From Neisseriales bacterium (GTDB lineage: Bacteria; Pseudomonadota; Gammaproteobacteria; Burkholderiales; UBA11063), in the NCBI GenBank assembly GCA_008017145.1, contig SSGY01000177.1, forward strand, positions 1 through 18,473: 18,473 bases of DNA, in the 5' to 3' direction. The position numbers and the translations under genes were made by a program. Of this stretch, positions 6,210 through 18,473 are shown one piece after another (within the stretch, counting starts at the first letter, position 1; every line of letters starts with the position of its first letter). The notes below the pieces were generated by a model that saw only the letters and a list, made by a program, of their open reading frames with translations, did no database searches and was not told the origin of the DNA.

Positions 6210-6778
6210 TTAGCGTCCAATGCTAAATCGTTTCTTTAAAAACCTTCTCCCTATCATAACTATACTATCTCTTTTGATCAAATCTGTAAAATATTGTTGA
6301 TTAAAAAGTTTATAGCGTTTATTAATTTTTATAAGTAAATATAATAGCCATTGATAATGAACGTGTTGAAACACAGATAAACACCTTTTTGGCATAAACT
6401 TAAATTTCAAATAATCATTCAATTGTTTATTAGAAACATACTCACTAAAATAATTGTCAAAATTTTTTCTTATTATTTTTCGAGAATGATTCTCAATACC
6501 TTCTAAAAAAACTGAAGTTGTTTGGGTGCTGGACTTCCGGTACATTAATAAAAAATCCGGTAAGTTCGCAAACTTGACCCCCTTGTATATAAAGTTGATC
6601 CATAAATCATAATCTTCAGCTAATCCGCCAAGAGATTCATCATACCTAACATCCAAAGAAACTAATATTTCACGTCTAACTATAACAGAAGGTTGAGCAA
6701 CACTGCATTGATAAAACAATGATGCAATCATTATTTCTTCTGTGCTAGTAGGATAAGCTACGTTTCCAATAATATTGT
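6210..6778 (-). pseudogene. GT2-family glycosyltransferase, C-terminal remnant truncated by an IS
   Basis: Read leftward from the edge of the IS3 element, the frame gives HNIIGNVAYPTSTEEIM, then LFYQCSVAQPSVIVRRE and GGLAEDYDLWINFIYKG. These are hallmark central and C-terminal segments of GT2 transferases: the acceptor-side YPTS.EE helix, Q.PSv..R, and the aED-W catalytic region. The whole N-terminal nucleotide-binding part, roughly the first 120-150 residues including the DXD motif, is missing, so the product cannot be active. An internal ATG at 6729-6731 could start 173 residues but lacks the active site. The missing half is not found beyond the IS at 7992 onward, which implies a deletion with the insertion or afterwards. 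It would have been the first visible gene of the polysaccharide operon. Confidence 0.8.
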
Positions 6779-6836
6779 GGTAATCCTCCCATTTTTAAAG
6801 CAGTCTAAAAGTATAGATTCTTTACAGCTTAAATAA

Positions 6837-7652
6837 TTATTTCTTAAATACTGGTGGCACACCTCCCAAGCTCATATGTGGTCTCACATTATTATACATC
6901 CAGAGCCACTGTGTTGATTGTTGTTTTACTTGCTCAATACTTTCAAATAGACATTGATTTAGTAATTCATAGCGCATCGTTCGGTTAAATCGCTCAACAT
7001 AACCATTTTGTTGGGGATTTCCCGGCTGGATATACCACAGCTCAATTTCACTCCTTTTTGCCCATTGCTTCAAGCTGTCACTAATATACTCTGGTCCATT
7101 ATCACATCTAATTGCAAATGGTTTGCCTCGACGTTCAATTAACCGATCTAGCGTTCTTATTACTCGAACAGCAGGCAAAGAGAAATCAACCTCAGTTTCC
7201 AATGCCTCGCGATTGTAGTCATCTATAATATTAAGTGTACGATACTTCCTGCCATCAATTAGATTGTCATACATGAAATCCATTGACCAGATATGATTTT
7301 GAAACTGTGCTACTGCTAGTTTCTCTGGTTTCTCACGCTTAACTCTACGTTTAGGTTTTATGCGTAGATTTAAACATAATTCACAATAGATGCGATAAAT
7401 AGGTTTATGGTTAAACTGTAACTTCAGGACATTGCGAATATACAAATAGCATAGTTGAAATCCCCATGTTCTATGCTCAGTAGTAATATCCAGCAGTAAC
7501 TGCGCAATCCTTTCATTATCATTATTGAGCTTACTTGTATAACGGTATGTAGTTTCACTTATACTAAATAACCGACACACTCGTCTAATGCTGAAGCCCT
7601 TACTCAATGTTACTTCTTTTGCCATCAATTTACGTTGCGATGGCTTTACCAC
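6837..7652 (-). CDS. IS3-family transposase OrfB (rve integrase domain)
   Basis: This 271-residue catalytic half of the IS3 transposase carries out strand cleavage and transfer as part of the fused OrfAB protein. After an HTH_21-like region (about 45-100) the integrase core begins with HIWSMDFMYD. The catalytic residues are D125, D184 (IRCDNGPEY) and E220 (NGYVERFNRT), with 35 residues between the last two, a proper DD35E triad. The C-terminus WMYNNVRPHMSLGGVPP is the usual IS3 ending. The apparent start is GTG at 7650-7652. It overlaps orfA by seven bases and is probably reached by -1 frameshifting rather than separate initiation. It looks complete. Confidence 0.92.
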   Translation of the reverse strand: MVKPSQRKLMAKEVTLSKGFSIRRVCRLFSISETTYRYTSKLNNDNERIAQLLLDITTEHRTWGFQLCYLYIRNVLKLQFNHKPIYRIYCELCLNLRIKPKRRVKREKPEKLAVAQFQNHIWSMDFMYDNLIDGRKYRTLNIIDDYNREALETEVDFSLPAVRVIRTLDRLIERRGKPFAIRCDNGPEYISDSLKQWAKRSEIELWYIQPGNPQQNGYVERFNRTMRYELLNQCLFESIEQVKQQSTQWLWMYNNVRPHMSLGGVPPVFKK

Positions 7653-7912
7653 TTTTTTGCCATAGCCTCTTTTAGGACATCGTGATCCATCTGTAATTCA
7701 GCATACATTCGCTTTAGTCTATTATTTTCTGACTCAAGCTGTTTTACTTTGGATAACATTGAAGCATCCATACCGCCATATTTAGAGCGCCATTTATAAA
7801 ATGTTGCACTACTTATTCCATTGCTACGACATACTTCTGTAATTGGCATACCACTTTCTGCCAATTTTAGAATGTTGATTATTTGTGATTCCGTAAACTT
7901 TGAGTTCTTCAT
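7646..7912 (-). CDS. IS3-family transposase OrfA (HTH_Tnp_1)
   Basis: This 88-residue DNA-binding protein begins MKNSKFTESQIINILKLAESGMPITEVCRSNGIS, the standard helix-turn-helix of IS3-family OrfA, followed by ATFYKWRSKYGGM. The second half (about 52-85) is a leucine-zipper coiled coil (LESENNRLKRMYAELQMDHDVLKEAM) used for multimerisation. On its own it binds the terminal repeats and represses transposition. Fused to OrfB it makes the active transposase. The start is ATG at 7910-7912 with an AAGGG-type ribosome binding site. The last codons contain the A_AAA_AAG slippery heptamer. Confidence 0.92.
   Translation of the reverse strand: MKNSKFTESQIINILKLAESGMPITEVCRSNGISSATFYKWRSKYGGMDASMLSKVKQLESENNRLKRMYAELQMDHDVLKEAMAKKW
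7652..7658 (-). promoter_or_regulatory. Programmed -1 frameshift heptamer of the IS3 element
   Basis: In the orfA frame the minus strand reads GCA AAA AAG TGG TAA. The heptamer A_AAA_AAG is the classic slippery sequence of IS3-family elements. A slip of one base back continues as GTG GTA AAG in the orfB frame and makes OrfAB. The orfA stop lies only three bases after the heptamer's final G. Confidence 0.8.
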
Positions 7913-8092
7913 TTTTAATACCCTTTTTGGTGTTAGTCGATATTGTAAATCTCTCTACTTATCAATAGCGCTTTTTTTAGGGGGTATTACCGTTAGCCAA
8001 ATGAGGTTTACAGACAGCCTCTATAGTTATCCCATCATTTATTGAGCGTAATATGTTAAAGTCTATGTCTCCTAATTTTGGTTGATAATAAA

Positions 8093-8444
8093 ATGCACGG
8101 ATGCTCACAAGACTTTAGGGATAAAGCAATGGATCTGTATAAAACAGGTAATTACAATAAGAAAGGGTTAGTAGATACTCTCTTTAAGTTATGCCACAAT
8201 TCGCAGATGGTGTGATCGGTATGATGAAACAGGCATCGACAACAATTTATCTAAACTATGAGGTTGGGCACTTAGAGGTTTGAAGTTTTTATCATGGATT
8301 ATGCTTGCGCTATGTAAGGAACTAAAGCCTAGCCAAGTAGTGATTAGTCGTGCTGCCGAATTTGCTGCAGCTACTGCGAGATACAAAGATAATCTACCAT
8401 TAACTAAAGAAGACCTGATGTATCACGAAATGTTTCCAAATTAA
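8093..8444 (+). pseudogene. Relic with IS630-like transposase N-terminus
   Basis: From ATG 8093 the plus strand encodes MHGCSQDFRDKAMDLYKTGN, like the helix-turn-helix start of IS630/ISFtu1-type transposases (YSQDFRD..). It then meets a stop at 8213-8215. Shifting frame near 8190-8205 continues sensibly as LSYATIRRWCDRYDETGIDNN, the expected second recognition helix, up to a stop at 8259-8261. The same frame reopens for 60 codons (GWALRGLKFLSW to TKEDLMYHEMFPN, stop 8442-8444). I do not recognise this last stretch and it need not belong to the same gene. No catalytic DDE domain is present. This is debris of a mobile element, possibly fused to an unrelated tail. Confidence 0.5.
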
Positions 8445-8579
8445 GATCATGCTATTTAGATGACTTATCCTCTCGTCGTTTGCCTAATTATGGCGCGAGC
8501 GGCGAGTAATTCTGCTTTTGGCGTATTGTAATATACTGAAGACTTCATCCTGTAATAGAGGTTCTTTTAAATCAACTAG

Positions 8580-8690
8580 CAGTCTGTTGATAAAACCTAT
8601 TAAATAGCCGAGAGCTATCAGGGAGAGTTTGAGACAGAATATCTCGATATTCCTCGACTATTTAGTAGGGTTTATCTGTGACCAACTACT
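8580..8690. repeat. MITE-like imperfect inverted repeat / large hairpin
   Basis: The 23-base arms at 8590-8612 and 8653-8675 are reverse complements with three mismatches. Beyond a few unmatched bases they extend outward through CAGT..GTTG (left, 8580-8589) and its complement near 8683-8690. The 40-base centre contains a further palindrome at 8637-8652 (GAATATC and GATATTC around a two-base loop). The outer CAGTCTGTTGATAAAA resembles the ends of IS1182/IS5-type elements. It ends about ten bases from the stop of the NlpC/P60-like gene, so it may also stop or stabilise that leftward transcript. It could be a MITE, a solo IS end pair or a dispersed intergenic repeat. Confidence 0.6.
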
Positions 8691-8700
8691 GTCTTATAGG

Positions 8701-9747
8701 CTATCGAATAACTCGTCGAACTCCCCAAATATTTTTACTATAGTAACTACAAAATGCACGGTAATCAGGACCTTGGTAAGTGCTGTCAATAATAACCCAT
8801 TGTCCAGCTTGAGGCTTGCATGAATCTTGTTCATATGGTTTGTGCGGAGCAATTATTGAAATTGGTACTTGATTAATACCATTGCCGATTTTTTTTCCCG
8901 TCCACATATAAGCATGAGTAACAATATTTTGCCCATTTGCTAGCCCATTGAAATCGTGTTGGGTTGCTCCAACATACATTAGATCTCCAGCGTTAAGATG
9001 AGCATAATCCTTATCTGTTAATTGAATAGTCTTTAAACCATTTTTATCAATTGTTGAAAAATATCCTGAAGTACATGATTCATTCTGTTCAAGGCTGCCA
9101 TCACGACATAGTAATTTTCCGGGTGCCATCCCATTCTGAAAATTACCAGCGCTGCGTTGCATATTTGGAGAACGACCATCATCAACCGCAATAAGACCGG
9201 CTTGTAAATAAATTGACGGTGTGAAGAATATCCCTAATCCAAAATTGTAAAGCCATGCTGTAAAGTCTGAGCAATCAAATCCATACCACATTTTGTTATT
9301 TTGCCAGTTTGTAATCGTTTCATTGCCTACTCCTGAATAATTCCAGCGAATTTGTTGCCCGTTAAATTGATTGTTTGCTAAATTTAAATTATTAGCGCAA
9401 AATTCATCACCTGTTGTTTGCTGTTTTAATATTTGGCGGTCGGTGGTACGAAAGTCTGGAGTATGATGATGACAATAATTTAACTTTTGTTTTATCCAAT
9501 AATCAGCGGCAGCAAGTAATCTTTGACGACTCCAGTCTGGATTTGTTGCACACTGTTGCTGTTCGCTATTCAAACTAAACTGATTTGCTTTGTACCCCCA
9601 TTTACCTTTGGCATAAGATGAAAACGGTTGTTGGTTCTGAAAACTAAAATCACTAATTTGCAGCTTACAATCAGCTGCGGCAACCGTAAAGTAAGTTGAT
9701 ATAATTAGCATTAGTTTATAATTTTTTAACATACGGGAAATTTTCAT
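8701..9747 (-). CDS. Secreted NlpC/P60-like cysteine peptidase (putative cell-wall hydrolase)
   Basis: This 348-residue exported protein has a signal peptide with likely cleavage in TVAAA/DC near 25. The C-terminal half has the papain-like NlpC/P60 arrangement: catalytic cysteine C159 in GFDCSDFTAWLYNFG, AGDLMYVGA (253-261) and catalytic histidine H278 in THAYMWTGKK. D321 in WVIIDSTYQGP is the probable third residue. Such enzymes usually cut peptidoglycan stem peptides or related amide bonds in the periplasm or outside. Unusual points are the roughly 95 residues between the GFDCSDF block and the GDLMYVG block, a 130-residue N-terminal domain with its own cysteines, and ten or so cysteines in total. 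The first ATG lacks a clear ribosome binding site, and the ATG at codon 6 is possible. It closes the exported-protein cassette. Confidence 0.7.
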   Translation of the reverse strand: MKISRMLKNYKLMLIISTYFTVAAADCKLQISDFSFQNQQPFSSYAKGKWGYKANQFSLNSEQQQCATNPDWSRQRLLAAADYWIKQKLNYCHHHTPDFRTTDRQILKQQTTGDEFCANNLNLANNQFNGQQIRWNYSGVGNETITNWQNNKMWYGFDCSDFTAWLYNFGLGIFFTPSIYLQAGLIAVDDGRSPNMQRSAGNFQNGMAPGKLLCRDGSLEQNESCTSGYFSTIDKNGLKTIQLTDKDYAHLNAGDLMYVGATQHDFNGLANGQNIVTHAYMWTGKKIGNGINQVPISIIAPHKPYEQDSCKPQAGQWVIIDSTYQGPDYRAFCSYYSKNIWGVRRVIR

Positions 9748-9845
9748 AAAACGGCTAATGTTACTCTCAGAAAAGGTTAATCACAAAAAAGTTGAAAAGT
9801 GATTACGATAACCCCACCAGACAAACAAAACTCTTAAAGTACCAA

Positions 9846-10082
9846 TCATTCTTTAACGTGTTGAGACATCTCCGCATTTAAACAGTTAGATTTTGCTTTG
9901 TTTGTTTGTGGTGCTGATTTGTGACATTCAGCTACAACCTTGCTGGCTTCATCTAAATGAGCAACGTAATAAGAGAGTGGGTGATGTATGACGTTATCAT
10001 CCACTGTTATTTTATCGCAAGCATTGAGCATCGTAATCAAAATCAATAGAGCGAACGTTAGTAGCTGTTTAATGATTTTCAT
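9846..10082 (-). CDS. EexN-family lipoprotein (entry-exclusion type)
   Basis: This small lipoprotein of 78 residues begins MKIIKQLLTFALLILITMLNAC, a lipoprotein signal peptide ending in the lipobox LNAC. The mature part has HPLSYYVAHLDEA, then ECHKSAP and SNCLNAEMSQ. It matches the pattern of EexN proteins: a (V)xxYYxxHxxE stretch, then a cysteine about 20 residues on, then NCxNA. EexN proteins of conjugative plasmids sit in the envelope of a recipient and block redundant mating by a type IV secretion system. I chose ATG 10080-10082 because AAGGTG (10087-10092) is four bases upstream. A TTG ten codons earlier is less likely. No conjugation genes are visible nearby, so the function here may differ. 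Confidence 0.68.
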   Translation of the reverse strand: MKIIKQLLTFALLILITMLNACDKITVDDNVIHHPLSYYVAHLDEASKVVAECHKSAPQTNKAKSNCLNAEMSQHVKE

Positions 10083-10086
10083 AACA

Positions 10087-10092
10087 CACCTT
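10087..10092 (-). promoter_or_regulatory. Ribosome binding site of the EexN-like gene
   Basis: AAGGTG on the minus strand lies four bases before ATG 10080-10082. It supports starting the lipoprotein there rather than at the TTG at 10110-10112, and it gives a signal peptide of normal length. Confidence 0.6.
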
Positions 10093-10127
10093 ATCTTTTT
10101 TATTATATTCAAATAGTCGATGAATGC

Positions 10128-10814
10128 TTATTTGCATGCAATCATGTATTCATCATGCCAATTATCTTTAGCAATAATCCCCCTAGTTCCTGTCGGGCAG
10201 TATTGATTTGGATTTATCCTTTCCCCATCTATTATTAATGTTGGTTGCGGATCAACTTCGGTCATGTAGTTCTTTGCTGGCATATTATCTCGATAATCAT
10301 AAATTGACTGAAAATAGACCTGTGGGATTGTACCGCCATTGCTTAGAGAGCCAGACCAGCCATATTTATAGGTATTACTCATTGGGCAAGAAGCCATCAT
10401 GCCAACCGCCCATGAGGTTGCTGGATTTGCAGCACAATCTGAAAAATATTGCCCGTTAGACGTATTTACGTTACTGACCGCTGGAGCAATTGGAGTAGAT
10501 GTTGGTTCTACTACTGGAGCAGAAGATTCAGTAGCTGCAGACTCGTATTTAGGTAATACTGTTGTGGCTTGTTTTATTTTATTAGCCAAGTCATCTTGGG
10601 ACATAGTATTCAATTCTGCGACCGTTCCAATTGTGGTACTTTCTGGTCCAACGGTGATTACATAATTCGCTGGTAGTTGGGATACTTCAGCTTTTAAACT
10701 ACTAGCACATGTTTCACTGAATCCTTGCTGGCAAGATGTTACGCCAAAGCTTCCACTAGCATTAGCAATCAGAGGTAGTATTAGTGTAGAAAGTAATATA
10801 GATGTTTTTTTCAT
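10128..10814 (-). CDS. Secreted six-cysteine protein of unknown family
   Basis: This 228-residue exported protein matches no family I can name. It begins MKKTSILLSTLILPLIANA with a clean signal peptide (cleavage after ANA at 19). The mature chain has a small N-terminal domain with C28 and C36. A P/S/T-rich linker of low complexity follows (about 93-118, ESSAPVVEPTSTPIAPAV). The C-terminal domain holds C127, C143, C206 and C227 and is rich in Tyr, Trp and Asn. Six cysteines after cleavage suggest three disulfides, hence a periplasmic or surface location. The ribosome binding site GAAGGAAAT precedes ATG 10814. The gene starts 11 bases after the pilin stop, so the two are surely cotranscribed, and it could be a pilus-associated adhesin or accessory protein. 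That role is inference from position only. Confidence 0.75.
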   Translation of the reverse strand: MKKTSILLSTLILPLIANASGSFGVTSCQQGFSETCASSLKAEVSQLPANYVITVGPESTTIGTVAELNTMSQDDLANKIKQATTVLPKYESAATESSAPVVEPTSTPIAPAVSNVNTSNGQYFSDCAANPATSWAVGMMASCPMSNTYKYGWSGSLSNGGTIPQVYFQSIYDYRDNMPAKNYMTEVDPQPTLIIDGERINPNQYCPTGTRGIIAKDNWHDEYMIACK

Positions 10815-10825
10815 TGTAATTTCCT

Positions 10826-11170
10826 TCAGTTAGTTAAACAATTCGCAGCAAATAAAACTGTTTGTTGAGGCAGTAAATGCCCATTACCAGTAATAGCGAT
10901 TGCACCGTCGCTTGTAATTACTAAAGATTTTATATGTTCGCCGTATACGCCAATCGATAAACCTGCCTCGATGTTACTATTTGGAAGTCGCCCAGTATTT
11001 TGGAAAAATTCACATTCAGCTTCGGCTGCCCATTTTGCATAAGTTACAAACTCGCTAAACGCAGCTCGTTGTGTGTATGCTTGATAAGCTGGTATAGCGA
11101 GAGCTGCAAGCACTCCGATAATGCTTATTGAAATTAATAATTCTATAAGTGTAAATCCGTTATCTTTCAT
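10826..11170 (-). CDS. Type IV pilin (PilA-like prepilin)
   Basis: This is a short prepilin of 114 residues. The leader MKDNG is followed by [31 protein letters not shown]. The G5/F6 bond is the prepilin peptidase site, and glutamate E10, position five of the mature chain, is the residue needed for subunit assembly. The hydrophobic helix is continuous, as in true pilins. The globular part has only two cysteines, C53 and C111, which could bridge the helix base to the C-terminus. It would be inserted in the inner membrane and then polymerised by a type IV pilus or pilus-like machine. No assembly genes are in the window. It is the first gene of the exported cassette. The start is ATG 11168-11170 with no strong ribosome binding site. 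Confidence 0.88.
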
Positions 11171-11691: not shown

Positions 11692-14238
11692 CTATGGTAG
11701 TAATGTAAACGTGGTATAGCCAACTCTTATATCTGCATCAGCATCATTCGAATAGTTGTAACTGATTGTATAACTAGTTACAGGAACATAAGATGCAGCG
11801 GTTAAATCTATCAAACAAGTTGGCGATGCTGTTGTCAATGTACAGCTAGCAGGAGAAGCTGTAAATCCGTCAATTAATTGAGGTGTTACAACTGCTGAAG
11901 TTAAATGAGAACTTAGACCAGCCAACGTAAAATTAATTGGTATAGTTTGCGTATTATCGCCATTTTTAATCACCGTTCCAACCGAGTTAGTCACCGTACC
12001 CCATGAGTTAACAGTAACATAATTACTAACGCCTGTACTAAAATTCTGATTTACTCCAGTATTGGCATCGATATAACTGTAACCTGGAGCCGTAATATTC
12101 ATTGATCCAGTCGGATAAAAATTAGCTTCTACTATTGGAGCAACAACGTTTAAAGTTATAATACAACTAGCACCGACTGCTAGTGTTGTTGTACTAGTGC
12201 CTGTTGGACAAGTACTACTTGATAGAATATAACCAAACGGTAACTGATTTAATGCAACATTAAATTTAGTTGCATCAGCCATTCCGTCATTAGTATATTT
12301 ATAGCTAAAGGTTAATTGATTTCCTGATGAACTAGAAAATACCCAAGGGCTAGAATCACTTCCAGAACCAGATAAATCACCCCATGCTGTTGCTGCGGGA
12401 GTTGAGCTGTCATAACTTACATTAATTAAAGCAGCTGTAACAGTTTCCAACGTGTAACTATCAATCGCTTGTACTGCTGAACTAACTGGTGTTGGCAGAT
12501 AACTAACAGTCAAATTCTGCGGCAAACTTTGTGTTGTTGTAAATGGCCCATAGCGTAATGTAATACTACAACTACTACCACTAGCTAAAGAACTACCACA
12601 ATTATTACTGACCGTAGTTTGTGAAGTTACGAATGGAAGTGTATAATTTATTTGAGTTGCGGGTATACTTGCTCCATTTGTAATGGTGAAGGTCTGTTCA
12701 ACGGTGGCAACACCATCTGCACGCACAGATGGATTTTGAGGACTTGCCGAAATGCTAAGGTTAGCTTCACTTTGTATTGCTGAGTAAGGTGTCGTTAAAG
12801 TTGGCGAATTATAACTAGTTGTTTGATTCTGGGAATTAGTATAATTTGCAGTAATTTGAGAAATAATATTTCCAGTTTCAACTGAAGTTGGAGTATATTC
12901 AATGGCAATATTGCAACTAGTTCCTAATGCTAAATTTTGAGAGCCATCTAATGCACAAGGTGTTGTTACACCGCTAGTTAAATACACAAATTTAGCATTG
13001 GGTAAACTATTAAACTTAAGATTATTCAATACACTATTACCACTATTGGCGACATTAACAGTTAGTGTTTTATGGGGTGAATTAGCAACAACATATTGTA
13101 AATTACCATTTGGGATTAAAGTAATGCTAGGCGTATTTGGAGTTGCAATATAAATAGCATTAAAAGCTATGTTAGTGCTGGTAGAGCCATTATTGTAAGC
13201 TATAGTTACGGTACCTTGACCATTAATAGATGAATTAGCATCAACCGTAAAAGTACAAGAACCATTAACCGCCAAATTTCCACTGCAAGTATTACTACCG
13301 ATTCCAAGAGCTGATGGAGCCCCAGAAACACCAGTAATAGTTGCTGTCGCATTACCTGTGTTTAATACCGTTATAAGTTTATCATCTGTTCCATCTGCAG
13401 GATTAATTACTAGATTACTGGCATCAACAACCAAATTTGCAATCGCATTAATTGTCATTTGATAATTAAATTGAGCATTATTGAGACTACCATCAGTTTT
13501 TGTACCTTGTAAAGAAACATTGAGTGCATTATTCGTACCAGGGAAACTTATTAGCGCAGTACATAAATTACCCTTAGTATATGCCCCACCATTACAAATA
13601 ATATTTCTAGATAAGATTGGTAAATTTGCAATTACATTTAGAGCGGAATAGTTGTCATCAAGGATAAATGGAATCGCAACAGTCGATTTACGATTATTAA
13701 CGACACTAAGTAAATTATTGTTATTAGCATAAATAAATCCATTACTTGACGGAAGTCCACTTTGATAGCTGACCACCTGTGCTGCTGTGTAAATTTTACC
13801 TGTAGGATCTTTAAAATCCAAATTAACAAACAAACCACCACTATTATCGGTCGGAGTCACTTTTAATGCACAGCTACCACTGGGAGCTAAAGTTTGACAG
13901 GCACTAGCATCAACTAAGTTATTAACATTACCGCCCAATAAAGATTTAAAACTTGCTTTAAGTTTTGCAAAAAGACTATTATTACTCGAATCAACAGGAC
14001 GAACTTTAACATCAACTAAAGTTAAGGTTTGATTTACAAAGCTATCCGCCTGTAAATAATAGCTTGCACCTTGCATATTATTTAGAAGAGGCATTGTCGA
14101 TGATGAGCTAATCGTCACCAAATTTGTCGTAGTCGGTGTAGGTGGAATATTCCCGCCCCCACTTAATGACGAACATGAACCATTGCCACACGCAACTAAC
14201 GCAAGACTGGTAAATAAAATTGAAATAAAATTACGCAA
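11692..14238 (-). CDS. Large surface lipoprotein with repeated cysteine-paired Ig-like domains
   Basis: This 848-residue lipoprotein begins MRNFISILFTSLALVAC with lipobox LVAC (lipidated C17) and a Gly/Ser/Pro/Thr-rich tether up to about 40. The rest is beta-rich and threonine/serine/asparagine-rich, and looks like a string of Ig-like (ASH/CARDB or choice-of-anchor type) domains. Each has a signature of the form C...(L/A).G.SC.(I/F). Visible cysteine pairs are 114/123, 215/226, 318/328, 428/442, 547/557, 677/692 and 799/808. NTGNATATITGV and VANSGNSVLNNL are typical strand signatures of these folds. Residues about 276-489 are clearly paralogous to the neighbouring 874-residue protein. The TTG start (14236-14238) is fixed by a strong GGAGG seven bases upstream, 18 bases after the neighbour's stop. 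It is probably an outer-membrane surface adhesin or scaffold; no catalytic motif is seen. Confidence 0.72.
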   Translation of the reverse strand: MRNFISILFTSLALVACGNGSCSSLSGGGNIPPTPTTTNLVTISSSSTMPLLNNMQGASYYLQADSFVNQTLTLVDVKVRPVDSSNNSLFAKLKASFKSLLGGNVNNLVDASACQTLAPSGSCALKVTPTDNSGGLFVNLDFKDPTGKIYTAAQVVSYQSGLPSSNGFIYANNNNLLSVVNNRKSTVAIPFILDDNYSALNVIANLPILSRNIICNGGAYTKGNLCTALISFPGTNNALNVSLQGTKTDGSLNNAQFNYQMTINAIANLVVDASNLVINPADGTDDKLITVLNTGNATATITGVSGAPSALGIGSNTCSGNLAVNGSCTFTVDANSSINGQGTVTIAYNNGSTSTNIAFNAIYIATPNTPSITLIPNGNLQYVVANSPHKTLTVNVANSGNSVLNNLKFNSLPNAKFVYLTSGVTTPCALDGSQNLALGTSCNIAIEYTPTSVETGNIISQITANYTNSQNQTTSYNSPTLTTPYSAIQSEANLSISASPQNPSVRADGVATVEQTFTITNGASIPATQINYTLPFVTSQTTVSNNCGSSLASGSSCSITLRYGPFTTTQSLPQNLTVSYLPTPVSSAVQAIDSYTLETVTAALINVSYDSSTPAATAWGDLSGSGSDSSPWVFSSSSGNQLTFSYKYTNDGMADATKFNVALNQLPFGYILSSSTCPTGTSTTTLAVGASCIITLNVVAPIVEANFYPTGSMNITAPGYSYIDANTGVNQNFSTGVSNYVTVNSWGTVTNSVGTVIKNGDNTQTIPINFTLAGLSSHLTSAVVTPQLIDGFTASPASCTLTTASPTCLIDLTAASYVPVTSYTISYNYSNDADADIRVGYTTFTLLP

Positions 14239-14256: not shown

Positions 14257-16881
14257 TTACCAAAAAAGAATATTATTTGAGCCAGAGAAACCCGAGGCGC
14301 CAGAACTAACGCACGTTAAAAAACCGTCACTTTCTCGAATATTACAGCCAAAAACTGAAGCGCCTGTTGAATAATTAACAAATAAATTATTATTTGCAAT
14401 CCCAAGACCTACTAAATTTCCTGCTGTCGTAATAATTGCTGTGCTTGTCGCATTTTCGCAATTGCTGACTGAAAGTCCGTCAACCGCTAATAAACATTTT
14501 GAAATAAACATAGTATTGCTGTAGCCATTAGCAAAGTAAAAATATTGATTATAAATTGCAACTCCTCGCCCTGTTATTCCTGAATTGATAAGCGTAGATA
14601 CACTAAGACTGCCACAATTATATACATCACCGGACTGGTCTAATTGACACCTAATTACGTAGCCATATTTAGGAGTCGTAGTATTAGTCATTTTAGAAAT
14701 ATAGATAATGCTATTCGCAATCAATAACCGATTTGGTGTGTCAGAACCCAAATAAATACTAGCGGCTGTCTCGGTTTTGCAATTTGTTAATGCTCCAGTT
14801 GTGCTTTCGATGATGCATTTATGTAGGCTATCTGGAACGGTTGATGTATCTGCATAATAAAATCGATTATCTTGAATCACAAAACCATAAGCAGATGTTG
14901 TTATCTGAGTTGTACAGCTGTTTATTACTTTTGTTACAGGATTTAATATACAACGTAAAACATTTCCGTTTTGAGGGCCAGTATAAATATAACTCTCATA
15001 ATAAGCTAAATTAACAAAAGGAGTTCCAGTGTTTGCTGTTGAACAACTGCTCAAACTGGTTCCTGAGCCTGAATAGTTACATATAGTTAAGCGACTCTGA
15101 CTTTGGCTTGCAATAATGGCTAAGGTCATGCGTTTATTTACATTAACGTACAAACTATTCAAACTCTTACTCCCCGTAGTTGCGGTTACAACATAAGAAT
15201 TTGGGTTACTATTGAGTGTCGTTATAATAGTTAGATTGCAACTCGGAGTGCTACTCGTTAAAGTGCAGGTAGCTGGTGAAATAGTTAGATTAGCTGGGTC
15301 TGGTGAAGTAAAAGTTACAATTACGGGATAGTCCGAAAGTGGTGAACTTTCAGTAACTGTAACCGTAGCACTTTCCCCCTGAGTCAATGTTACAAAATTA
15401 TTACTGTAACCAACATTTAATGTGTCAACCGTTGAATATGGGATTGTGATTGATGAATTATAGCTTTGACTTTGGTTAGTAGCACCTGCATATTCAGCGT
15501 TCAAGCCCCAGTTAAATGTACCATTTTGTTGTAGCGTTGGATTATAAACAACACCTAAGTTACAACTACTCCCACTCGGCAGGTCTTGAGTACCATCAGT
15601 TTTGCAAATAGGAGCTGCAATCCCATTAGTAGTATAGCTCAAATAAGGATTCAGGATATTTAACTGACTAAAATTAAATTTGTTTAACGCGCGGTTACCA
15701 TTGTTGCTAATATTTAATGTCATTACCGATGGCGTATTTAAAATCGTACTGTTAAATGACCCGATTACGGATATTTGTGCACCAGTGCTCGAATTATTGG
15801 CAATGTAAATTGCATTGAGATTTTGTGTTTGGAGCGTTCCATCTGGATTTTGGTAACTAATAATTACGTTGGATTGCCCATTTAGCTGGCTGGTGGCGTG
15901 TAAATCAAAACTGCAGCTAGCATCAACCGCCAAATTGCCATTACACGAATTATTGCTAATCGAAAGCGGTGAACTAATCTGAACATTCAAATTATTAGCA
16001 ATCGCTAATCCAGCATTAAGTAACGTTATGCTAGCAGTTCCACTACTTCCATTCGCTGGATTAATTACAATGTTATTGCCACCAATCAAGACATTTGGAT
16101 TCAAACTGTTATCAATCTGGACTAAGCTTCCAGTCTTTAATGTAGAGGTGGGAGAATACATTAATTCAATATTAAAATTCCCACTATTAACATTGGTAGT
16201 CAATAAAACCTGACATAGTTGATTTGCTCGTAAGCTCGTAACTCTAGCACCTTCACAAAAAAATTGACTAGATAACCGTGACGGTATATTTAATTGAGCC
16301 GATAAATACTCATACTGGGTGGGGGTAATTAAAACAGGTAAAACAGCACTAACGTTACCAGATGCTTGAGCCATTATTGGATTGCTTAGCTGTCCCAAAT
16401 TTAATATATTGGTAGCAGTGTTTGTCTTAGTATAATTAACAAATGCAGTGCTTGCACGGTGTTGATCATCATATGCCGTCACTGCAAAGCTACCTGAGTT
16501 AATAACAGGCGGAATAGTAACAGCAATTAAACAATTGCCTCCTGTTGCAACATTCGTACAATTCATCGCTTTCAGTGATACATTAAGTGGTGCACCACTA
16601 TAGTTACTAGTCGCTAGAGAAAGATCAGATAAATTATCACTCGAATTATTATTTAGTTGCAATACAAGTGTGTGTGACCGATCATCGCTAATCGTAAATG
16701 GAGCAACCTGACTAAGGCTAATTAGCGAATTATTGCCAATCAACCCTGAACTTTGAGCCTTTTGGCTCCCTCCTGAACAACTATTCAGAGTCACAGTAAT
16801 TAACATAACTGCTAAAAATTGCGTTACTAGATGGGCTGAACAATAAAACCGCTGTTTTAAAAAGATACTTAAAAACTTCAC
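14257..16881 (-). CDS. Large lipoprotein with Ig-like domains and a C-terminal six-repeat beta-propeller-like domain
   Basis: This 874-residue lipoprotein has the lipobox LNSC (lipidated C35) after a long signal peptide. Residues about 40-485 are Ig-like domains with cysteine pairs (108/117, 209/223, 313/323, 426/440), paralogous to the downstream 848-residue protein. A further Ig-like unit has ATCTLTSSTPSCNLTI (537-552). From about 586 the chain changes to six repeats of 43-56 residues, each with a cysteine pair 11-12 residues apart: 601/613, 644/656, 689/701, 745/756, 796/808 and 846/857. An aromatic (I/F)YYA or FYFAN strand lies between pairs, as in six-bladed propellers. The C-terminus NNILFW ends in aromatics. 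The start is GTG 16879-16881, with AAAGGTG eight bases upstream. It is likely surface-anchored and used for binding. It is the first gene of the two-gene operon. Confidence 0.75.
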   Translation of the reverse strand: MKFLSIFLKQRFYCSAHLVTQFLAVMLITVTLNSCSGGSQKAQSSGLIGNNSLISLSQVAPFTISDDRSHTLVLQLNNNSSDNLSDLSLATSNYSGAPLNVSLKAMNCTNVATGGNCLIAVTIPPVINSGSFAVTAYDDQHRASTAFVNYTKTNTATNILNLGQLSNPIMAQASGNVSAVLPVLITPTQYEYLSAQLNIPSRLSSQFFCEGARVTSLRANQLCQVLLTTNVNSGNFNIELMYSPTSTLKTGSLVQIDNSLNPNVLIGGNNIVINPANGSSGTASITLLNAGLAIANNLNVQISSPLSISNNSCNGNLAVDASCSFDLHATSQLNGQSNVIISYQNPDGTLQTQNLNAIYIANNSSTGAQISVIGSFNSTILNTPSVMTLNISNNGNRALNKFNFSQLNILNPYLSYTTNGIAAPICKTDGTQDLPSGSSCNLGVVYNPTLQQNGTFNWGLNAEYAGATNQSQSYNSSITIPYSTVDTLNVGYSNNFVTLTQGESATVTVTESSPLSDYPVIVTFTSPDPANLTISPATCTLTSSTPSCNLTIITTLNSNPNSYVVTATTGSKSLNSLYVNVNKRMTLAIIASQSQSRLTICNYSGSGTSLSSCSTANTGTPFVNLAYYESYIYTGPQNGNVLRCILNPVTKVINSCTTQITTSAYGFVIQDNRFYYADTSTVPDSLHKCIIESTTGALTNCKTETAASIYLGSDTPNRLLIANSIIYISKMTNTTTPKYGYVIRCQLDQSGDVYNCGSLSVSTLINSGITGRGVAIYNQYFYFANGYSNTMFISKCLLAVDGLSVSNCENATSTAIITTAGNLVGLGIANNNLFVNYSTGASVFGCNIRESDGFLTCVSSGASGFSGSNNILFW

Positions 16882-17272: not shown

Positions 17273-18088
17273 CTAAAATACCCAGCTAATTTGGCGTTTT
17301 CGTAAAATTTGGATACTATTATCCAGTGTTAGGCTAATTTTATTGGCTGCTTTTAGTAAGTTATGAGCAATTGCTACTAATAAAGCCTGAGTTTTAACTT
17401 TGGCTATACCAATGTACTTGCTTCTGGTAAAACCAAAGATATTTTTAGTTGTAGCGTTTGTGCGTTCAACGATATATCTGGTTTTTGAAATACGCTTATT
17501 ACGATAAAGCTGTTTGAATGTAAGTTTAGTATTACGTTTAGCCTTATCCATAATACCGTTGCCAATGTTATTTGTTTTTAGAAATTCACGGTTAGCTTCT
17601 GAAGAGTAGCCTTTGTCTGTTTGCAGGAATTTAGGTGCGGCTTCTTCAATCACTGGTTGCAGCACTTGCTCTAAACTAGTCATCTCAGATTGATTCGCTG
17701 GTGTTATCATTAAATGTTCATAATAGCCATCAGTGGCATCGGTTACAATAAACTCTTTGAAACCAAATATGTTACGTTTGCCTTTTTTAAGCCATTTTGC
17801 ATCTGAATCTATTTCGACATTTGATTGCTGGTTAGCACTTAATTCAAATAGCTCTCCACCACTACCTGAATTATCAATATCGTCCTCATTACGATCTTCT
17901 GCGATTAGCTTTGGTTTGGCTTGTGAGTTAACTGCGGCTTCAATTAAAGTTGCATCCAGAATTGCACCTTCGGTTATCTTTACTTTGAGGTTATGCTGTT
18001 CAAGCTGATGATTAATCTGCTTTAGATAACCATCCAACATATCTTGTTTAACTAGCTTATTCCTAAATCTACAAATTGTAGTTTCTAG
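17273..18088 (-). pseudogene. IS5-family transposase, 5' end removed by another IS
   Basis: The C-terminal two-thirds or so of an IS5-family DDE transposase are present. The frame runs from ETTICRFRNKLVKQD just inside 18088, the conserved TTICRFR block, through GAILDATLIEA (first catalytic aspartate) and LQTDKGYSSEANREFL (second aspartate). It ends with RYIVERTNATTKNIFGFTRSKYIG, which carries the catalytic glutamate. Counting from the internal ATG at 18040, these are D29, D141 and E191. The catalytic residues are intact, but the N-terminal DNA-binding part is missing: the frame meets a stop immediately beyond 18088, where another element begins. The internal ATG would give only 255 residues. 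The stop codon is at 17273-17275. It cannot transpose on its own. Confidence 0.8.
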
Positions 18089-18473
18089 AACTTACGCATT
18101 GACAGAAATTCATAATTATGCACATGCCATGCCTGTAATGCTGTTGTGTTTAATAAATTCAGCAATAATTTTGTTAAATAATTGTCGCTGCACCTGATAC
18201 CAATTAGTAATTATTTGTTTGGTTTTCATTATTTCTAGTTTGCAAAAGGCTTTGAGTGCACAATAAACATGCGTCCTAATTGCATGGCTTTTGCGAACTT
18301 GGAATCTTTCAATATTACAAACCTGTTTAAGTGCTCGATGATAACATTCAATTTGCCAATGTTGATCATGGGTACTTTTAAAGTCCGTATAATTAATTGA
18401 ATCTAAACTCTCTAAATTGGCAACACCCATGATGTAATAGCGATATGCTTCTTTGAATAACTGTCTAAACACC
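18089..18473 (-). mobile_element. IS4/IS701-like element, one end, running off the window
   Basis: Next to the IS5 fragment the sequence becomes AACTTACGCATTGACA (18089-18104). Its complement TGTCAATGCGTAAGTT reads like a terminal repeat seen on some IS701/IS4-type elements. The tetramer CTAG (18085-18088) lies at the junction and fits the CTAG target preference known for IS701. The second end and the matching target copy are beyond the window, so the element's identity and length stay provisional. Confidence 0.6.
18116..18473 (-). CDS. IS4/IS701-like transposase, C-terminal part (cut by window edge)
   Basis: The last 118 or so residues of a DDE transposase run leftward from the window edge. 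The block HDQHWQIECYHRALKQVCNIERFQVRKSHAIRTH contains the catalytic glutamate in the IECYHRALK signature, with E and K six residues apart, as in the E(6)K part of the IS4/IS701 motif. The tail ALKAFCKLEIMKTKQIITNWYQVQRQLFNKII is also usual for these enzymes. A GTG at 18470-18472 is in frame but is not the true start, because the two catalytic aspartates must lie further upstream. The stop is at 18116-18118, about 12 bases inside the proposed terminal repeat. Confidence 0.8.
   Translation of the reverse strand, partial: VFRQLFKEAYRYYIMGVANLESLDSINYTDFKSTHDQHWQIECYHRALKQVCNIERFQVRKSHAIRTHVYCALKAFCKLEIMKTKQIITNWYQVQRQLFNKIIAEFIKHNSITGMACA

Follow-up and report, generated by a model that had tools for sequence, protein, structure and literature searches.

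The window, by which we mean the whole analyzed stretch of 18,473 bases, contains four consecutive open reading frames (ORFs) on the minus strand that code for exported proteins, as the original prediction had claimed. In the direction of transcription, these encode a short PilE-like type IV prepilin of 114 aa (10826..11170), a secreted protein with six cysteines (10128..10814), a small lipoprotein of the EexN family (9846..10082), and a secreted NlpC/P60-like enzyme (8701..9747). Two larger ORFs on the same strand precede the pilin gene. One codes for an 848-aa putative lipoprotein with an Ig-like domain (11692..14238; PF22544, 25.6 bits at a cut-off of 25.5), whose match to a choice-of-anchor model stayed under the cut-off (26 of 45 bits). 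The other codes for an 874-aa putative lipoprotein (14257..16881) with no family above any cut-off.

The cluster lies between transposase ORFs. On one side is an ORF with rve domains (6837-7652), adjoined by an 88-aa ORF (7646-7912) that we take to resemble IS3 OrfA, and on the other side are the transposase ORFs at 17273-18472. Among six ORFs scanned on the left side, three matched glycosyltransferase families, one matched EpsG, and two had no Pfam match. A 173-aa ORF without a Pfam match (within 6210-7912), presumably the end of a glycosyltransferase, is located next to the transposase ORFs, which may have truncated it. The Pfam scan covered 15 of the 40 listed window ORFs of at least 50 aa. 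Searches of the window against Rfam and of the region 8046-8690 against plasmids returned nothing.

The pilin and the six-cysteine protein

The window pilin has a prepilin signal and methylation motif (PF07963, N_methyl; 35.5 bits compared with a cut-off of 21.2), and it was matched by Neisseria PilE with an E value of 1.3e-15 over query residues 6-91. Its identity to nine aligned relatives was 33-40%. The alignment (A3) showed that the window pilin lacks the C-terminal disulfide loop, known as the D-region, and that its end precedes this region. A loop of the W-x-C...P-x-x-C type closes eight of nine aligned Aquella-group relatives, and the window pilin stops before it. The family PF00114 (Pilin) was not listed for the window pilin at E 1. 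A homology search for diverged relatives with pilin residues 28-114 returned only the query itself (nine candidates), so any conservation of the pilin/six-cysteine pair would be hypothetical.

The six-cysteine gene starts 11 bases past the pilin stop (gap at 10815..10825, minus strand), and its start codon is preceded by GAAGGA, which we take to be a ribosome-site-like stretch. The protein has its own Sec-type signal, recognized by eye, and a proline/threonine-rich linker, and its six cysteines are conserved. It belongs to no Pfam family, has no relative below E 1 among solved structures, and yielded an unusable structure model (mean pLDDT 37.4). Its best score as a D-region was 0.9 bits (residues 201-208), which was matched by 21 of 500 shuffles, and its start scored −0.9 bits with the D-region profile. 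The protein is also much larger than a D-region. A comparison with the tails of the long pilins of the Aquella group gave an hhalign probability of 0.1%. With blastp, a long modular pilin was matched (E 0.002, 18% identity) when neither composition correction nor a low-complexity filter was applied; this match lay in serine-rich stretches and was discarded.

Searches for the six-cysteine protein in Aquella-group genomes, run without a positive control, gave no match (0/5 and 0/23). Matches in 31 of 300 genomes of the order (E ≤1, best 0.0116) were short and weak and were taken as chance. None of three stretches in viral contigs was confirmed, and the plasmid search gave one non-significant match (E 0.4).

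A split pilin in the Aquella group

At an Aquella-type locus (L069, genome G203), a PilE-like pilin stops early and a 93-codon ORF begins 13 bases on. The product of this second ORF starts with a Sec-type signal (by eye), behind which come the loop that the pilin lacks, a proline-rich stretch, and two further cysteines. Together, the pair tiles the 108 positions of PF00114, the first ORF matching positions 2-83 (30.8 bits) and the second positions 80-107 with 22 bits, exactly the curated cut-off. The profile of 15 D-regions gave 23.7 bits for the second ORF, a score reached by none of 500 shuffles. Judged by these matches, the pair is a split pilin whose second part has newly gained an export signal, something that a simple reading-frame error would not produce. 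In the alignment, the Aquella-type and window pilins break off at about the same column, behind the strand located before the D-region. A term search of the Aquella oligotrophica paper (PMC6612550) found no pilus words.

A 900-aa lipoprotein encoded about 2.6 kb downstream of this split pilin is related to the 848-aa lipoprotein of the window (25% identity in 773 aligned columns, E 2.6e-28). Since 65 matches of this family are spread over 15 of 23 Aquella-group genomes, we regard the shared neighborhood of pilin and Ig-type lipoprotein as weak evidence of conservation. The 874-aa protein of the window had no significant match to a 348-aa lipoprotein of the Aquella-type locus (blastp E 0.52).

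Frequency of early stops and splits

In the Aquella group, a pattern search over the loci of all 31 matches yielded 33 distinct pilin-like ORFs besides that of the window, and the split at L069 was the only one among them. The W-x-C motif was missing, by the pattern used, from 13 of the 33. Eight of these looked like other minor-pilin types (L124-L126, by eye), and three were a variant loop (L064), a masked sequence (L059), and a cut sequence (L065), which leaves the split pilin and L056. The PilE-like pilin of L056 ends early too, and the remaining 207 bases of its contig contain no partner ORF; hence an early end alone proves little.

Order-wide, matches occurred in 147 of 300 genomes. From a part of these, 36 loci (26 and 10 regions), most of them picked for short open frames, were sampled. 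Among 42 ORFs in this sample, a looser pattern flagged eight, and no split with a Sec-type partner was found. The pilin of L181 looks like a plain frameshift. Splits thus appear to be rare in the sample examined, and the window may represent a second, further diverged case.

Several other variants of pilin architecture were seen. PilE-like pilins with extra C-terminal domains of ~150-190 residues occurred at five loci (L054, L118, L120, L121, and L123), and the extension of L118, the only one scanned, was covered by no Pfam family. Cysteine-rich tails were present on Aquella-group pilin-like proteins of L125 (stop at 2223) and L126 (stop at 2723), with repeated CSGNC units in the former. In two genomes (L066:2011-2481 and L067:2019-2486), a PilE-like pilin is followed by a pilin-like protein that, by eye, has no usual prepilin cleavage motif.

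The EexN-like lipoprotein and the exclusion hypothesis

The small lipoprotein scored 41.8 bits with the NCBIfam model NF033894 (EexN; cut-off 33) and resembles this family also in its lipobox (LNAC, with Asp at +2; by eye). According to the Lol rule of E. coli, Asp at +2 hints at inner-membrane retention, and the same residue would hint at this location for the window lipoprotein.

The original prediction had offered, as one hypothesis, a barrier or exclusion module built around a pilus-like fiber and directed against conjugation, phage, or competitors. We surveyed 300 genomes from the order of a Neisseriales relative for the EexN family (E 0.001) and obtained matches in 25 genomes at 35 places, six of which were under the curated cut-off. 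VirB4-type matches were present in 18 of the 25 genomes. At 18 of the 35 places a VirB4 match was located within 10 kb on the same contig, and at the other 17 there was none, although broken assemblies may hide further links. One of five Aquella-group genomes contained an EexN match (L049), which had conjugation-like neighbors by eye and VirB4 9 kb away. The EexN family is often, though not always, found beside conjugation genes. Beside the window copy, no conjugation gene occurred among the 15 scanned ORFs of the 18,473-base window. A tblastn search of plasmids with the lipoprotein returned nothing, the 78-aa query being insensitive.

An exclusion module would agree with the score of the lipoprotein above the family cut-off and with the 18 places close to VirB4. 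It is opposed by the lack of conjugation genes among the scanned window ORFs, by the 17 places without VirB4 in range, and by PADLOC, which reported nothing for any of six window proteins at E 0.1. We consider such a module highly improbable. The lipoprotein looks like a relative of a known family rather than a part of a new barrier system.

The NlpC/P60-like enzyme and conservation of the gene order

The enzyme has the NlpC/P60 fold, and its residues Cys159, His278, and Asp321 were invariant in all 25 aligned rows. We infer that Asp321 is the third catalytic residue, and likewise the geometry of the site. With 14.7 of 23 bits, the enzyme missed the gathering cut-off of the Pfam NlpC/P60 family. 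It differs from the NlpC/P60 peptidases 7cfl, 4r0k, and 3h41 in this low score and in extra cysteines and an NYCHHHxP-like motif, which its Legionella and Burkholderia-type relatives have in common with it. Genome loci with this enzyme family numbered 40, from Legionella, relatives of Burkholderia, Neisseriales, and others, and its named members include Legionella species and Aquella oligotrophica (P0091). Taken with the many Aquella-group matches of the 848-aa lipoprotein family, this suggests that the window probably stems from an Aquella-like member of the Neisseriales. Like the EexN-like lipoprotein, the enzyme is a member or near-member of a known family, and the tie of both to the pilin is positional only.

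A four-gene order shared with other genomes, as expected for a conserved system, was not recovered. When every ORF of 40 or more codons in the 40 enzyme loci, several of which are cut by contig ends, was compared by phmmer with the other window proteins, no relatives of the pilin, the six-cysteine protein, or the lipoprotein were found (E 0.01). At three Legionella enzyme loci the neighbors differed, as judged by their first 70 residues. A partial exception to this mostly negative outcome is that the enzyme and the six-cysteine protein each have relatives with 66-74% identity. These two genes probably occur together in one relative, because the entries P0002 (enzyme, 74%) and P0098 (six-cysteine protein, 67%) agree in a longest contig of 34,776 bases and list two contigs each.

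Searches with the enzyme gave no match in phages, 22 stretches in viral contigs of which none was confirmed, and three distant matches in plasmids; two of these were inspected and had no such neighbors. In two Aquella-group genomes (L115:8094-10345 and L117:7944-10185), an NlpC/P60-like lipoprotein is directly followed by a lipoprotein with a DTGS motif, which showed a sub-threshold similarity to the aspartyl-peptidase-like family PF20729 (E 1.2e-5 and 5.2e-6). A 606-aa relative of the enzyme (P0072), without a Pfam family at E 0.1, has a lipobox and Ig-like stretches (by eye) ahead of the NlpC/P60-like part. This single chain recalls the separate large lipoproteins beside the enzyme in the window.

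Interpretation of the locus

We tentatively propose that the pilin and the six-cysteine protein are the two parts of a split type IV pilin, or that the latter is a separately exported head of the former, and assign this reading a probability of roughly 0.4. It draws on four observations: the pilin ends early, the six-cysteine gene follows after 11 bases, its product has a Sec-type signal (by eye), and a relative has a clear split pilin. The case for the Aquella-type pair is strong, that for the window less so. In both, a truncated pilin is followed by a gene whose product is exported separately, and the partner is recognizable as a C-terminal pilin part in the Aquella-type pair only. Since the six-cysteine protein shows no recognizable pilin loop, the two-part reading of the window is an analogy.

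In the proposed mechanism, the short pilin would supply the signal, the helix, and most of the beta-sheet, and type IV pilus machinery with genes elsewhere in the genome would assemble it. The six-cysteine protein, probably translated from the transcript of the pilin, would be exported by Sec and may dock where the C-terminal loop of the pilin is missing. Once docked, it could form the surface of the fiber, with adhesion as the probable role. The NlpC/P60-like enzyme would cleave peptidoglycan, either that of its own cell or that of others, and the EexN-like product would be a small envelope lipoprotein.

A PilQ model had matches in all six relatives searched, three of them over the cut-off, and in seven of 14 control genomes, one over the cut-off; the weak matches may be other secretins. 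Given the matches in all six relatives, the adhesion or secretion island with machinery encoded elsewhere, which the original prediction had named as the other option, fits better than the barrier module, against which the PADLOC, conjugation-gene, and synteny results speak. In two genomes of the group (G203:C1:142847-144234 and G002:C18:38271-39598) the PilQ match lies in two separate open frames that are divided at different points, which could be real or an assembly error.

Decay and chance would offer another account of the window, in which the pilin is a damaged accessory copy and the four exported proteins lie in a variable surface region between transposase genes. The transposase ORFs on both sides, the 40 enzyme loci of which none keeps the other genes, and the early-ending pilins without partner (L056) or with an apparent frameshift (L181) are in line with it. 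The clean spacing and the ribosome-site-like stretch before the six-cysteine gene argue against decay, as does the retention of its product and of the enzyme among relatives, one of which probably carries both on a single contig; we regard this account as rather unlikely. The six-cysteine protein might instead work like TcpF or CofJ, as a soluble cargo or adhesin that Sec exports and the pilus then releases or displays while the pilin fold is left uncompleted. Its gene adjoins that of the pilin, and a Sec-type signal, a linker, and conserved cysteines without any pilin-like sequence would suit such a role, which, however, leaves both the missing D-region and the parallel Aquella-type arrangement unexplained and appears unlikely to us.

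For the two-part pilin, an evolutionary scenario can be drawn that we consider doubtful. In the Aquella group, the pilin would have been cut after the sheet and its C-terminal piece exported by Sec, and the window lineage would then have swapped this piece for an unrelated six-cysteine head, making the fiber surface swappable by one gene. If the two-part reading is true, pilins of two chains occur outside Geobacter and its relatives as well, and the pilin fold can be cut at a different place. It would also become directly testable how much of a pilin suffices for fiber assembly and how fiber surfaces diversify. The Aquella-type pair lends itself to such tests more cleanly than the window does.

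Comparison with known systems

A literature search, with most subscription journals outside its scope, returned no title on a split pilin of Neisseriales, and the phrase "split pilin" was absent. The closest described arrangement is that of Geobacter. The short Geobacter pilins adjoin a GSU1497-like gene, an arrangement for which an origin by gene fission was inferred (PMC5174107), and the pilin has been described as a PilA-N/PilA-C heterodimer (PMC11046646). The role of PilA-C, possibly as a chaperone, and the naturalness of the two-chain fiber are disputed (PMC8844916, PMC9207759). The window resembles PilA-N/PilA-C (GSU1496/GSU1497) in that a short pilin gene is adjacent to a gene for a separate protein, and the Aquella-type partner is likewise a plain C-terminal pilin piece. 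In contrast to PilA-C, the partner in the window has no detectable pilin sequence. The position of the cut also differs, being in the loop after the helix in Geobacter (PMC5174107) and after most of the sheet but before the D-region in the window and the Aquella-type pair. Compared with Neisseria PilE and the Aquella-group PilE-like pilins, the window pilin has the same N-terminal signal, helix, and sheet region but lacks the C-terminal disulfide loop. Finally, the modular pilins PilB and PilC of Streptococcus sanguinis (PMC10191384) are alike in adding a surface domain to a pilin; there the domain is part of one chain, whereas the head in the window would be a separate chain.
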